NCBI GenBank assembly: GCA_024256285.1
Contig: JACGUG010000007.1
Location: 1-42,283, forward strand
Source: an archaeon
GTDB lineage: Archaea > Thermoproteota > Nitrososphaeria > Nitrososphaerales > JACAEJ01
DNA length: 42,283 nucleotides
Direction: 5' to 3'
Under the pieces are notes generated by a model that worked only from the letters and a program-made list of their open reading frames with translations, had not been told where the DNA came from and ran no database searches. Of this stretch, positions 8,557-14,634 are shown piece after piece. Positions within the stretch are counted from its first letter, which is position 1, and every line of letters begins with the position of its first letter. The position numbers and the translations under genes are program-made.

Positions 8557-9597
8557 TTATCGACTGCGGCTCCCGAACTCTACGGTTGCGTCCACGAAGG
8601 CCTTTATGTGCTCGGTCGGCGTCTCCAGCCAGAAGTCACAGCCTGGGGCGACCATGTCAACACCATCGTCTATGGCCTTCTTCACGAATTCCCTTATCCT
8701 CTCTACAGGTCCAAAGTGTACCACTCCATGGGCCGGGATGTTGCCTATCAATACAGCTTTGGGATCAACCTTCTCGGCTTTTTCCTTGGCTTCCTTTATA
8801 GGTGTTCTCTCATCCACAGCTATCGCTTTCGCTCCACATTCGACCATTTTATCGGCGATCATTGCTGCAGACCCACATATGTTAAGTATTATGGGTACTT
8901 TTACAGACCCGATCATCTCCTTTAAGTAAGGCTTCACAAACACATCGAACTGTTTTGGTGATAGGTTGTCTGTCGAACCACCCATCTCATGGAACGTTAT
9001 AACGTCGGCACCAGCATCTGCAAAGAGCCCGACAAGCTCTTTATACATTCCCATGGATGCCTTTAAAAATTCATGAACTTTGTCTGGCGATTTCCTTACC
9101 GACTTCAGGAAGACGATGCTATCTACTACGTAGCTACTTATGCTTGTAAAGGGAGGGACTATGTAGACGTTTACTGGTACTTTACCCTCGAACTCTTTCT
9201 TCAAGATTTCGATCGCTCTTATGATCGTGGGTACTCTGCCCGCAGCTGAGACATCCTTCGGTATTTTGATGTCCGAGACATCCTCTGCGTGAAAGCTTCT
9301 TATAGACGGCCACTTTATCGTGTCTTCATGAAAGTCGATAGTAGCCCCCATCAGCTCCGCCTCGACCGTCATATCGAATGGCACCGATAAATTATCGAGA
9401 CCACACTGTCTATGGGCTGCAGAGCCGAGTCCGGCCATCTTCTCAGGGTCTTTATGAGCTTGAGGCCAGTAGGCATCATATAACTCCATGAAATCCATCG
9501 TGGCTACGCTTACAGAGTTTACACAAGGGATTCTATCGGTAGCATCCTTGTTTCCATTAAGAACTTCCATAAACCTCTCATACGAGTTCATTTCCAT
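8557..9597 (-). CDS. UroD/MtaA-MtbA-family methyltransferase (corrinoid-dependent), paralog 1
   Basis: YERFMEVLNGNKDATDRIPCVN N-terminus; AGADVITFHE; IILNICGSA; GNIPAHGVVHFGPVERIREFVKKAIDDGVDMVAPGCDFWLETPTEHIKAFVDA. Confidence 0.82.
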   Translation of the reverse strand: MEMNSYERFMEVLNGNKDATDRIPCVNSVSVATMDFMELYDAYWPQAHKDPEKMAGLGSAAHRQCGLDNLSVPFDMTVEAELMGATIDFHEDTIKWPSIRSFHAEDVSDIKIPKDVSAAGRVPTIIRAIEILKKEFEGKVPVNVYIVPPFTSISSYVVDSIVFLKSVRKSPDKVHEFLKASMGMYKELVGLFADAGADVITFHEMGGSTDNLSPKQFDVFVKPYLKEMIGSVKVPIILNICGSAAMIADKMVECGAKAIAVDERTPIKEAKEKAEKVDPKAVLIGNIPAHGVVHFGPVERIREFVKKAIDDGVDMVAPGCDFWLETPTEHIKAFVDATVEFGSRSR

Positions 9598-9758
9598 CGT
9601 AAGACGTCATCTATCTATCCTATTTTAAGGTATCCCAAAACGACAAGCAATTCCTTAAGAGTTCGTCTCGACCCTAAAAGCTCTTCAAGATCATCTCATT
9701 GGAGTGCGTTAAATAGTAAACCTAATATATGACTTTTCCTCCCCAAAAGGCGATGGTA

Positions 9759-10553
9759 ATGAGCGAAAAAGAGGAAATCCTGAAAAAATTTGTTGAAGCT
9801 TCTGCTGGAAGCGACGAAGAGAAGGTCGAAGAGGCATTAAATGAAGCAAAAGAACTAGGTGATGCCCAACTGATCGCCCAGCTAAAACTGATTAGAGGTG
9901 TTGATATTGGAGACGAGGAGATGTGTGCAGAGGCGGCAAAAGAGGCAGTGGAAGCAGGCATGGCACCTTACAAAGCTATAATAGATGGATTGGCTAAAGG
10001 AATGGAGATAGTCGGCGGAAAATACGAATGCAAAGAATACTTCCTACCTGAAGTGCTTATGTCAGCCGATGCCATGTATTCAGGATTGAACTACCTACTC
10101 CCACTTATCCCTAAGGATGAAAAGGGAACCAAAGGGAAGATAATCATGGGTGTAGTCGAGGGAGACGTCCATGATATAGGCAAGAATATAGTCAAGGCGA
10201 TGCTCACAGCAACAGGGTATGAACTCGTAGACTTGGGAAGGGATGTCCCAACCGATGATTTCATCGAGTCAGCCAAGAAGGAAGGGGCGCAGGTAATAGC
10301 CATGTCCACACTGATGACACCTACATTGATGTCCATGAAGACCGTCGAAGACAAGTTAAAGACAACAGGGATGAAGGATAAGGTCAGGACGATCATCGGC
10401 GGTGGCTCAGTTACTGATGAATGGAGAGCAAAGATAGGATCAGATGCCTATGGCAAAGATGCAATGGAAGCAGTCGACAAAGTAAAGATGCTGATCGACC
10501 AGATCATGGTCGCTGTCAAAAAGATGAAGGAAACAGAAGAAGAAGAAAAGTAA
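9759..10553 (+). CDS. Methyltransferase cognate corrinoid protein (MtaC/MtbC/MtoC-like); likely start ATG 9759
   Basis: N-terminal helical cap plus B12-binding domain with DVHDIGKNIVKAML (DxHxxG) and IGGGSVTDEW. Confidence 0.88.
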   Translation: MSEKEEILKKFVEASAGSDEEKVEEALNEAKELGDAQLIAQLKLIRGVDIGDEEMCAEAAKEAVEAGMAPYKAIIDGLAKGMEIVGGKYECKEYFLPEVLMSADAMYSGLNYLLPLIPKDEKGTKGKIIMGVVEGDVHDIGKNIVKAMLTATGYELVDLGRDVPTDDFIESAKKEGAQVIAMSTLMTPTLMSMKTVEDKLKTTGMKDKVRTIIGGGSVTDEWRAKIGSDAYGKDAMEAVDKVKMLIDQIMVAVKKMKETEEEEK

Positions 10554-10810
10554 GCTCAGAAGTAACCTAAACTCAACAAAAGCTGTAGATAACTCTCCTG
10601 AAAGAGAGAAGTAACTGACTACCTATTTTTCCATCTCTTTCTCTCATTAATTCTGCAAATACTCCCGCCTTCTACTCATGAGGACTTACCGACTATGCTT
10701 TACAAAAACTTTGATGTTATCATTCACAAAGATGCACCAAATAGATCAAGACTATGAACATACCGAAAAGGTTTTAAAAAAAGAGATTCAATGCACGGTA
10801 GGGATTGGTG

Positions 10811-11917
10811 ATGGTATACAAAACTATACCTCAAGATGAGATGACACCCTATGAAAGGATAATGACCGTCCTTGCAGGAAAAAAGGAAAAGATCGATCGA
10901 CTTCCAGTCTTTAACGCTATTACTACCTACACGTTACACGGTATGGAAATCTTCGATGCATATTGGCCGGAAGCTCACAAAGACCCTGAGAAGATGGCTA
11001 GGTTAGGTGCAGCTCTTCATGAGCTTACTGGCTTAGAGAACGTTGAAGTCCCATTCGAACTAACCCTTGAGGCAGAGGCACTCGGTATTGAATTAGAATT
11101 TTTTGAGGGTAAGATAAAATGGCCTTCAGTCAAGAGGTATTGGGTTAAGAAGATAGAAGACCTTAAGATCCCAGAAAGACCAGAGGAGATAAGAGAAAGG
11201 GGAAGGGTTCCCATCGTTTGTGAAGCGATTAAAATTCTAAAGAAAAGATATGAGGAGAAAGTTCCAGTACTTGCCAATATAGACTTCCCATTCCAGAGTA
11301 TTGGTGGTTATATAGTCGATACTACTACATGGTACAAATGGATGAGGAGCGAGCCTGAAAACGCTCATGATTTTATGAAAACGCTTACACCACTCTACAC
11401 CGAGATCGCTATTGCATACCTAGAGGCAGGTGCCGACGCAATTACCTATAGAGAAGAAGCCTCTTCACTTGCTAATATTCACCCCAAGACTTTCCGTAAA
11501 TTCGTTATGCCTTATCTTAAGGATTCGATAGCTCGTGCGAAAAAGTACGGACGTGTAATTCTCCATTGTTGTGGTGAGTTGTGGTCCCCAAATCTGGAGA
11601 ATGTGAGCGGGCTTATCGAATGCGATCCTGACGCCCTCACGGTTGAGGAAGCTACGCCTATGGTTGAAGTAAGGAAAATCGCTGATGAGCTAAAGGGACC
11701 ATCGTTTCCAATAGGCGGGAATTTAAGCGCTTTCACGGTTTTGTACCAAGGACCTATTGAAAAAATAAGGGACAGGACCAAGAAAGTCATAGATGACGGT
11801 TGTGATATGCCTATGGCTGGTTGTGACATCTTTATGGGGACTCCTACTGAGTACATAAAAGCGTTTGTAGATGCTGTAATCGAATTTGGAACCCCACCCC
11901 CATGGCGGAGGGGCTAA
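10811..11917 (+). CDS. UroD/MtaA-MtbA-family methyltransferase, paralog 2; likely start ATG 10811
   Basis: YERIMTVLAGKKEKIDRLPVFN; VILHCCGELW (HxC) and DMPMAGCDIFMGTPTEYIKAFVDAVIEFG (distal Cys). Confidence 0.82.
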   Translation: MVYKTIPQDEMTPYERIMTVLAGKKEKIDRLPVFNAITTYTLHGMEIFDAYWPEAHKDPEKMARLGAALHELTGLENVEVPFELTLEAEALGIELEFFEGKIKWPSVKRYWVKKIEDLKIPERPEEIRERGRVPIVCEAIKILKKRYEEKVPVLANIDFPFQSIGGYIVDTTTWYKWMRSEPENAHDFMKTLTPLYTEIAIAYLEAGADAITYREEASSLANIHPKTFRKFVMPYLKDSIARAKKYGRVILHCCGELWSPNLENVSGLIECDPDALTVEEATPMVEVRKIADELKGPSFPIGGNLSAFTVLYQGPIEKIRDRTKKVIDDGCDMPMAGCDIFMGTPTEYIKAFVDAVIEFGTPPPWRRG

Positions 11918-11943
11918 GCGAGGTTTAAAGGAGGTGTCTTGAA

Positions 11944-12186
11944 ATGGGTGTAGCCTTTCAGATGAAGACGTATACGATTCAAAGCAAGATAGGAGATAGC
12001 CTAAAAGTCAGAATCGAAAAGGTAGGCGCAGGAGAGGGAGCAGACATCATCTATAGGATAATTCGCGGCGAAGATAGACGAAACCTGGATCCAGATAAAG
12101 TCATGCTCTATAAAGAGGAGTTAGAGCAGCTCATCGAGTTTCTGAAAGATGATTTTCTCAAAAAGGAGTTTCCAGATGGAGGCTAG
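11944..12186 (+). CDS. Small uncharacterised protein (80 aa) in the methyltransferase cluster
   Basis: ORF with strong upstream Shine-Dalgarno-like aaaggaggtg, shortly downstream of paralog 2. Confidence 0.7.
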   Translation: MGVAFQMKTYTIQSKIGDSLKVRIEKVGAGEGADIIYRIIRGEDRRNLDPDKVMLYKEELEQLIEFLKDDFLKKEFPDGG

Positions 12187-12225
12187 CTATAGCACTCCTA
12201 TACTAAAGAGGTGAGGGAGGTAAAG

Positions 12226-12366
12226 ATGGTAAAATACAAATGCCTAATTTGCGGAGAAGTATTCGATAGCGATGAAAAAGAAGGTAAACTACACATGCAA
12301 ACAAAACATGAGATGGGCTTCTTTGAAGCAATGTGGCTGGGGAAAGTGGAGAAAGTAGAAGAGTAA
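12226..12366 (+). CDS. Small C2H2-type zinc-finger protein (46 aa), not in ORF track
   Basis: MVKYKCLICGEVFDSDEKEGKLHMQTKHEMGFFEAMWLGKVEKVEE*: CxxC...HxxxxH spacing; gtgagggaggt upstream. Confidence 0.75.
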   Translation: MVKYKCLICGEVFDSDEKEGKLHMQTKHEMGFFEAMWLGKVEKVEE

Positions 12367-12400
12367 GGCGAGAAGTAAGAAAATAAGAGGGATAATTGGG

Positions 12401-12423
12401 AAGGCCAGAATTGTTCTGGCCTT
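12401..12423 (+). other. Perfect 10-bp stem / 3-nt loop hairpin in intergenic region
   Basis: aaggccagaa-ttg-ttctggcctt, exact inverted repeat. Confidence 0.85.
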
Positions 12424-12663
12424 CAAGACTTAATGACTCTATGATGGGAGAGAATACAGAGATGATTCCCCATATCTTTTAGTCCTAATGACGATCAGAA
12501 AAAATAACGACTTCAGAATACCTGCAGATGAAGCATTAAGTTACCTTTAACACTAAAAGATATCTTTTATTCCCACTTTAGGCATGATCACGTTCTTCTT
12601 TTACGGATTGTATAGAAAGTTTAGCGAAACCTTTATCTAAGATACCTATGGAAGGGTTTTTGA

Positions 12664-14634
12664 TTGAAATTGTCTTCAGAACCAGAAAAATTTGAAGTAA
12701 TCTTCCTTCCACACGGAAGACGTGATTTCTTTGAACTCGGCACCAGATTATTGGACGCATCTAGAGCATTGGCGATAGACCTTGCTTCAGACTGTGGAGG
12801 AAAGGGAACATGTGGCAAATGTAAAGTCAGAATCGATGAAGGATTAGAGTCGCTAGGTAAGATCAAGCCTTCAGAGGAAAAACACCTAACAAAGGACATG
12901 ATCGAAGGTGGCTACAGATTGGCATGCTTGGCCAAGATACGGGCACCTTTGAAAGTTTACGTTCCTGAGATAAGCAGAGTAGGAAAGCAGAGGCTGCAGA
13001 CCGAGGGACTTGAGGTACCTGTAACTGCGAATCCCTTCGTTAGAAAGTATTTCGTGAAGATGCCAGTACCTACCTTGCATGATGTGAGGTCTGACGAAGA
13101 TCGACTTTTAGATACACTAAAGAAGCAATATAAACTCGATCCGAACACTCTGGTTATGGAATTCGATATAGCGAATGATTTCCCTAAAATCGCGAGGGAG
13201 GCGAACTGGGAGGTAACAGTCACAGTATGGAAGGATATAGGCCGATACAAGATTATTACCATCGAACCCGGAGATACCTCTGGTAGGTGCTTCGGCTTCG
13301 CCTGCGACATAGGCAGTACAAAACTTGCAGGCTTCCTTATGGACTTGAACACAGGCAAGGTTGCAGCGGTAGGTTCAAGGATGAACCCCCAGACCCCTAT
13401 GGGCGAAGACGTGCTATCAAGGATAACCTCCGTCATGATGGGTGGTAAAGAAGCTCAGGATAAGATCCATAATCTTGTTGTAGGCGGGATCAACGAGATT
13501 ATAGAGGAGTGTTGTGAGAAGGCCAACGTGAACATCAATGAAATCTACGAGCTTTGCTTCGTCGGCAATACAGCCATGCAGATGCTCTTCCTCAGATTAT
13601 GGCCTCAGTATACAGCTTTCTCTCCATATCCACCTGTGCTAAGGCGTGGAGTCAACGTGCCTGCACCGAAGTTGGATCTAAAATCCCATCCAAATGCTAA
13701 CGCTTACTATGTACCAGTTATAGGAGGCTTCGTGGGCGCAGATCAGATAGCTGTCATACAGGCAACCCGCATGCTGGAGAGGGAGGAGATCACCATGGAT
13801 GTAGATATAGGAACCAATACTGAGATCGCCCTTGGAAACAGAGACCTAGTGACTTCTGACTCTTGTGCTTCGGGTCCAGCCTTTGAAGGGATGGAGATCA
13901 AGTTCGGCATTAGGGCTGCAACAGGTGCCATAGAGGCGGTAAGCATCGATCCATCGAGCTTGGAGCTTATCCACAGGACTATAGAAGATCAGCCTCCAGT
14001 CGGGATCTGTGGGTCTGCACTTATCGACATTCCAGCCGAACTTCTAAAATCTGGGTTGATCGATCTAAAAGGAAAGTTCGTCTCTAAGATGGCAGAAGAG
14101 ACCAACAGGTTGAGGAAAGGAGCAGAAGGGTGGGAATACGTAATAGCTTGGACAGACGAATCCGCTACCGAGCATGATATAGTGATAACACAGGGAGATA
14201 TAAGAGAATTGCAGAAGGCAAAGGCAGCCATGCATACTGGCGCTGAACTCATGTTGAGAATGAGAGGCATGACTGAGAAGGACATAGACAAAATGTGGCT
14301 GGCTGGTGCATTTGGAAACTACATCAACCCTGAGAACGCTAGGACCATAGGAATGTATCCGGAGCTACCCACTGAAAAATACGTATTCGTCGGGAACGCT
14401 GCTGGAACGGGCGCAAGGATGTCTCTGATATCACAAGAAGAGAGGGCTTACGTCGAAAAGATATCGACGACAGTAGTATATTATGAGCTAGCCACTGATC
14501 CAGACTTCCAGAGTGAATACGCCAGGGCGAACTACTTCCCTTACCAGGACCTTAACAAGTATCCCCTTACAAGAGACCTGCTACTGAGACTTGGCCGCAT
14601 CGATGAGAAGGGGAAGTTCATCTACCCAGAATAA
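12664..14634 (+). CDS. Corrinoid reductive activator, N-terminal [2Fe-2S] plus ASKHA ATPase domain (RACo/MtoD-like, DUF4445/COG3894 type)
   Basis: Ferredoxin motif DCGGKGTCGKC...RLACLA; CDIGSTKLAGFL; DVDIGTNTEIALG; CASGPAFEG; GNAAGTGARM; TTG start. Confidence 0.87.
   Translation: MKLSSEPEKFEVIFLPHGRRDFFELGTRLLDASRALAIDLASDCGGKGTCGKCKVRIDEGLESLGKIKPSEEKHLTKDMIEGGYRLACLAKIRAPLKVYVPEISRVGKQRLQTEGLEVPVTANPFVRKYFVKMPVPTLHDVRSDEDRLLDTLKKQYKLDPNTLVMEFDIANDFPKIAREANWEVTVTVWKDIGRYKIITIEPGDTSGRCFGFACDIGSTKLAGFLMDLNTGKVAAVGSRMNPQTPMGEDVLSRITSVMMGGKEAQDKIHNLVVGGINEIIEECCEKANVNINEIYELCFVGNTAMQMLFLRLWPQYTAFSPYPPVLRRGVNVPAPKLDLKSHPNANAYYVPVIGGFVGADQIAVIQATRMLEREEITMDVDIGTNTEIALGNRDLVTSDSCASGPAFEGMEIKFGIRAATGAIEAVSIDPSSLELIHRTIEDQPPVGICGSALIDIPAELLKSGLIDLKGKFVSKMAEETNRLRKGAEGWEYVIAWTDESATEHDIVITQGDIRELQKAKAAMHTGAELMLRMRGMTEKDIDKMWLAGAFGNYINPENARTIGMYPELPTEKYVFVGNAAGTGARMSLISQEERAYVEKISTTVVYYELATDPDFQSEYARANYFPYQDLNKYPLTRDLLLRLGRIDEKGKFIYPE

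Follow-up and report, generated by a model that had tools for sequence, protein, structure and literature searches.

Several described systems for methyl transfer are built on proteins of the UroD superfamily, and two of them, Mto and the mlp gene clusters, are the closest to the locus reported here, although neither fits it fully. The Mto system of Methermicoccus shengliensis (MtoA, MtoB1, MtoB2, MtoC, and MtoD) is made of two UroD-superfamily proteins, a corrinoid protein, an MtrH-like protein, and a RACo-type activase (PMC8630106). For the mlp gene clusters, Kountz and Balskus proposed a role in methyl-sulfur/methyl-selenium salvage; type 1 clusters run in one direction without divergent genes, and His-Cys-Cys is invariable in their Mlp2 and Mlp3 proteins (PMC10418091). 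We analyzed a stretch of 42,283 nucleotides from an archaeon (contig JACGUG010000007.1 of assembly GCA_024256285.1, contig C13 of our set, hereafter the window), in which an island at positions 8557–14634 encodes two UroD proteins, UroD1 and UroD2, together with a corrinoid protein and a RACo-type activase. With confidence evenly balanced between yes and no, we propose that the island is a module resembling Mto: the UroDs would be substrate-side methyltransferases, RACo would reactivate the corrinoid protein, and the methyl group would be passed on in trans.

UroD1 (346 amino acids; 8557–9597, reverse strand) and UroD2 (370 amino acids; 10805–11917, forward strand) both have the URO-D domain of Pfam (E = 6e-66 and 1e-63, respectively); the TTG start of UroD2 at 10805 is possibly two codons early, an in-frame ATG being found at 10811. 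The two share 44% identity, and the remaining four URO-D proteins of the genome are 28–35% identical to either, as expected from the initial annotation, which had read them as two divergent UroD/MtaA-type methyltransferases. With MtaA and MtbA, the soluble coenzyme M (CoM) methyltransferases (4ay7), they have in common the fold, the zinc triad in the case of UroD2, and the methylcobalamin:CoM methyltransferase subfamily model PRK06252, for which UroD1 scored 279 and UroD2 259 bits, both above the cut-off. However, both fall below the NCBIfam equivalog cut-offs for MtaA (263 and 223 against 400) and MtbA (178 and 182 against 600). In a 45-row tree they formed one clade (support 100/99), within which that of UroD2 was supported at 100/100, apart from the clade of MtaA and MtbA (98/99). 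The approximately unbiased (AU) test rejected the groupings of UroD2 with MtaA (p 1e-6), UroD1 with MtaA (p 6e-39), and UroD2 with MtbA (p 9e-4), whereas UroD1 as a clade was not rejected (p 0.45). The tight clustering inside a characterized clade, which the initial annotation had named as grounds for dropping its proposal, was thus not seen for MtaA/MtbA. At the sequence level, it is supported that UroD1 and UroD2 are neither MtaA nor MtbA and represent a branch of their own in a known enzyme family. The motif E-X14-E-X20-H, associated with MtoB, MtvB, and OdmB, was absent from both.

The residues of the zinc site were mapped from MtaA onto the orthologues of UroD1 and UroD2. The triad is intact in UroD2 (His254, Cys256, and Cys340), and His-Cys-Cys was found in all 14 orthologues. 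In UroD1, the zinc histidine is changed to asparagine (Asn239, Cys241, and Cys320), and Asn-Cys-Cys was present in 12 of 12 orthologues located in clusters; solo relatives of UroD1 have Asn or Ser at the lost position. The retention of Asn-Cys-Cys in every cluster copy, together with a ratio of nonsynonymous to synonymous substitution rates (dN/dS) of 0.09, argues for a working altered site in UroD1. Zinc-free substrate-side methyltransferases are on record, namely CdmB and the Moorella O-demethylase (PMC13222342). The conserved His203 of UroD1 lies in an FHEMG-like motif and follows the barrel strand 199–202 in the structure model; it might replace the lost zinc histidine. The best fold match of the UroD1 model (predicted local distance difference test, pLDDT, 69.7) was MtaA 4ay8, with a template modeling score of 0.77, and the weak UroD2 model (mean pLDDT 63.1) was relied on for fold only.

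The difference between the two sites is in line with another reading, namely that UroD1 would be a substrate:corrinoid and UroD2 a corrinoid:CoM methyltransferase, so that the island would supply Mcr with methyl-CoM by itself. The thiol-activating His-Cys-Cys triad of MtaA is present in UroD2 and not in UroD1, both proteins exceed the cut-off of the CoM methyltransferase subfamily, and mcrB and hdrDE-like genes lie within the same window. We consider this division of labor unlikely, however: UroD2 is far under the MtaA and MtbA equivalog cut-offs and a clade with either was rejected, the genome already has four genes of the MtaA/MtbA type, and the pair is kept, with MtrH adjoining, in genomes without detectable McrA.

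The corrinoid protein (274 amino acids; 9729–10553, forward strand) combines a B12 cap domain with a Rossmann domain and shows DxHxxG in the form DVHDIG at residues 146–151 (about 10164–10181). Its score for TIGR02370 was 220 bits, above the cut-off of 215, and the nearest solved structure is that of the trimethylamine corrinoid protein 7xcn. The RACo-type [2Fe-2S]/ASKHA corrinoid reductive activase (656 amino acids; 12664–14634, forward strand) shows the full order of Pfam domains common to the RACo, AcsV, and MtoD activases, that is, Fer2 (the N-terminal [2Fe-2S] domain), linker, middle, and RACo C-terminal ASKHA domains, and it matched the solved RACo 3zyy at 2.7e-124. The AcsV model gave 466 bits, below its cut-off of 800. 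The partner that neighbors the island RACo is a methylamine-type corrinoid protein rather than the corrinoid protein of carbon monoxide dehydrogenase/acetyl-CoA synthase. A single corrinoid protein with DVHDIG and a RACo/MtoD-like [2Fe-2S] activator had both been named in the initial annotation, as had two tiny open reading frames (ORFs) and the mcrB and hdrDE genes, and all of them were recovered, the last as McrB and HdrD/HdrE-like genes.

The genome of the window consists of 118 contigs (1.48 Mb). Among named relatives, Ca. Methylarchaceae archaeon HK01M is the closest (93% identity in UroD2); it is one of the metagenome-assembled genomes (MAGs) of Ca. Methanoinsularis in the order Ca. Methylarchaeales (PMC9478090). 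The genome belongs within Ca. Methylarchaeales, in the TACK branch, nearest to Ca. Methanoinsularis. Methyl-reducing methanogenesis has been inferred for the order, with HdrDE adjoining mcr (PMC9478090). The genes for UroD1, the corrinoid protein, UroD2, ORF80, and RACo keep a syntenic arrangement around ThiDN and PyrG across five other MAGs of the order (L007–L011), which indicates that the island did not arise by chance; in L008–L011, UroD2 and ORF80 sit past ThiDN. UroD1 was not in the L011 locus, and the closest match in a search of that whole genome was its own UroD2, at 43%. In the comparison with Ca. Methanoinsularis HK01M, dN/dS was 0.09 for UroD1, 0.14 for the corrinoid protein, 0.15 for UroD2, and 0.10 for RACo; the four large genes of the island are under purifying selection. 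ORF80 (80 amino acids; 11944–12186, forward strand) encodes a conserved small protein, homologues of which, 55–88% identical and each adjoining UroD2, occur in every one of L007–L011 and, in another class, in the two genomes of L076 and L084; it gave zero Pfam matches, and a profile search of the PDB returned none better than E = 1. The second small ORF (51 amino acids; 12211–12366, forward strand) is zinc-finger-like, with a GTG start or possibly a later ATG. It is 84% identical in L007, the nearest relative, and no copy was seen in the remaining loci searched, so that it is conserved at the genus level only and its membership in the island is uncertain. An Rfam scan of the window and of contig C59 gave zero matches. 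Text searches of the literature found no publication describing this UroD pair or cluster. The island is real, conserved, and partly anticipated in print.

Like the type 1 mlp clusters, the island combines at least two MtaA-like proteins (Mlps), a corrinoid protein, and a bacterial-type activase, and likewise no carrier methylase was seen in the window. Its corrinoid protein shares 48% identity with that of an Acetoanaerobium noterae cluster, the gene order of which resembles that of the C. ljungdahlii cluster, vs. 38% with the methylamine corrinoid protein of its own genome, and a clade with Mlp-B of the A. noterae cluster was neither firmly recovered nor rejected (AU p 0.41, with one reference cluster only and long branches). 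These points favor a methyl-sulfur/methyl-selenium salvage function outside energy metabolism. However, the divergent UroD1, on the opposite strand, breaks the single direction of type 1 clusters, its Asn-Cys-Cys departs from the invariable His-Cys-Cys, MtrH lies inside the cluster of the relatives in another class, contrary to the published criteria, and RACo is just 33% identical to the A. noterae activase, such that we regard the salvage function as quite improbable. A UroD-superfamily S-methyl enzyme with a separate corrinoid protein is also known in MtsA, the methylthiol:CoM methyltransferase, and in this respect it is like the island. In the sister genome JZ-2 bin_220, mtsA and mtrAH were annotated for "unknown methylated compounds" (PMC6783470); one of UroD1 and UroD2 may be that mtsA.

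As for Mto, its list of parts equals the island plus MtrH. A lone MtrH is encoded in this genome on contig C52, unlinked to the island. Unlike in Mto, MtrH is unlinked in Ca. Methylarchaeales, and no aromatic transporter was seen. MtoB, moreover, is MtvB-like and of 47–48 kDa, whereas the UroDs, of 346–370 amino acids, score with MtaA-type models.

We then looked at the other methyl-transfer genes of the genome. Six URO-D genes were found, four of them of the MtaA/MtbA type, on contigs C59, C44, C25, and C98. The C59 gene has pylBSCD, RamA, and a second corrinoid protein in its vicinity, and MtmB with one in-frame TAG and tRNA-Pyl are on the same contig, such that a Pyl/MtmB/RamA system for methylamines is present; that on C44 is an MtaA above the equivalog cut-off, adjoining hdrD and mcrA. 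The gene on C25 (L017:8385–9428) is an MtbA-type paralogue that has lost two zinc ligands (Tyr-x-Gly...Cys) and adjoins dph5. No genome scored above the cut-off for ComE (TIGR03846), G000 and three other order members included, and the model is therefore uninformative as a test of CoM synthesis; these four genomes may import CoM or use another synthesis route. The absence of MtaB, MttB, MtmB, and MtrH reported in the initial annotation holds for the window, and MtaB was not found genome-wide, but an MttB-like gene, MtmB, and MtrH are present elsewhere in the genome. Of the methyl-transfer module that it had proposed, a corrinoid module with RACo stands, while a UroD acting as corrinoid:CoM methyltransferase is hypothetical; the four MtaA/MtbA-type genes are present, and the same pair occurs with MtrH where no McrA was found.

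The MttB-family gene (C46; L051:2180–3631) has no in-frame stop and scores 413, below the pyrrolysine-MttB cut-off of 525. It is near methionine-sulfoxide-reductase-like genes. It opens a further reading, in which this non-pyrrolysine MttB-like protein would be the substrate enzyme of a quaternary amine, acting on the island corrinoid protein, with the UroDs as second methyltransferases. Its nearest PDB entries are 2qne and the glycine betaine methyltransferase 9yce, no corrinoid gene accompanies it on its contig, the genome yielded just two corrinoid proteins with PF02607 (one being that of the island), and MttB-like genes lie inside the cluster, with a second corrinoid protein, in four loci of another class (L050, L076, L080, and L083). 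Nevertheless, the island genes persist in the five other order members although the MttB-like gene is intact in one, broken by stops and frameshifts in another (G583), and not found in three, and L077 has two MtmB-family genes without in-frame stop in place of MttB. We thus hold the quaternary-amine reading to be very unlikely, and an obligate partnership of the MttB-like gene with the island is rejected, since in four of the five it is broken or was not found. MtmB is usually a pyrrolysine enzyme; MtmB-family (PF05369) genes without in-frame TAG were also seen in G537 (11 of 12 copies), G556, and G442, with up to 11 per genome and some adjoining corrinoid proteins.

Relatives of the pair were found in another class of the phylum, probably Bathyarchaeia, where 13 of 257 genomes searched had UroD1-like genes. 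The whole Mto-type list of parts is clustered in L050, L076, L077, L080, and L083, where the UroD genes are found with a corrinoid protein, RACo (59% identical to that of the island in L050), and MtrH, and L050, L076, and L077 include an MtaA/MtbA-type gene as well. MtrH adjoins genes of the island type in these loci and in L079, L081 has UroD2 and MtrH, and L084 has UroD1, UroD2, the corrinoid protein, and ORF80. No match to McrA (PF02249) was obtained in the 13 other-class genomes with UroD1/2 relatives (drafts 58–97% complete), so that a CoM-methylase role would be unneeded there. In a 5.1-Mb bacterial record, the deltaproteobacterial MAG bin73 (CP070673; L012:10001–13203), a UroD2 is near a B12-binding protein and MtrH; it is 71–78% identical to the archaeal UroD2s and nested among those of Methylarchaeales, which points either to a transfer or to chimerism of the MAG. 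A genome from a different family (L082:7117–10120) has a RACo of 42% identity adjoining an Asn-Cys-Cys UroD1-like gene.

Three observations lead us to place the UroDs on the substrate side in the Mto-like module: the CoM methylases are redundant in the genome, the pair adjoins MtrH in genomes without detectable McrA, and the deltaproteobacterial UroD2 is near a B12-binding protein and MtrH. The direction of methyl transfer, the MT1 (substrate-side) role of both UroDs, and the acceptor are inferred. The zinc-containing UroD2 would demethylate a small methylated compound and methylate the corrinoid protein, UroD1 with its Asn-Cys-Cys site would do likewise, with one or two donors overall, and RACo would keep the corrinoid protein active. 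The methyl group would then go in trans through an MtaA/MtbA-type protein to CoM and McrABG and/or through the lone MtrH to tetrahydromethanopterin (H4MPT) and acetyl-CoA synthesis. Several points weigh against this proposal. The His-Cys-Cys triad of UroD2 and its best hidden Markov model, PRK06252, fit an MT2 (CoM-methylating) enzyme equally. The island in Ca. Methylarchaeales holds no MT2 gene and is unlinked to MtrH, nor does it have a transporter or a substrate-specific gene linked to it. The absence of McrA in the other class depends on the incomplete drafts, and the deltaproteobacterial record is a MAG. Solo relatives of UroD1 (L055:7767–8786, L057:7775–8797, and L085–L087) have no corrinoid neighbor; that in L055 is flanked by alcohol-dehydrogenase-like and ornithine-cyclodeaminase-like genes.

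Ca. Methylarchaeales have been described as methyl-reducing on the basis of mta/mtb/mtt annotations and of "unknown methylated compounds" (PMC9478090, PMC6783470). In Bathy-6 archaea a corrinoid-MtrH pair occurs without an identified substrate enzyme (PMC7886697). A concrete candidate for the missing substrate enzyme is the UroD pair, which is conserved, has a corrinoid protein and an activase of its own, and is accompanied by MtrH elsewhere in Thermoproteota. Tentatively, and with more doubt than conviction, we suggest that UroD1 and UroD2 could be a new substrate-side pair, one zinc-dependent and the other with a rebuilt zinc-poor site, for a donor unused by characterized systems, common to methyl-reducing TACK methanogens and to McrA-less relatives that would send the methyl group to H4MPT. 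UroD1, with its altered site under strong selection, would probe methyl transfer by this fold without the classical triad. The role of the Wood–Ljungdahl pathway in Ca. Methylarchaeales has been described as a mystery (PMC9478090), and the MtrH route could supply this pathway in the order.

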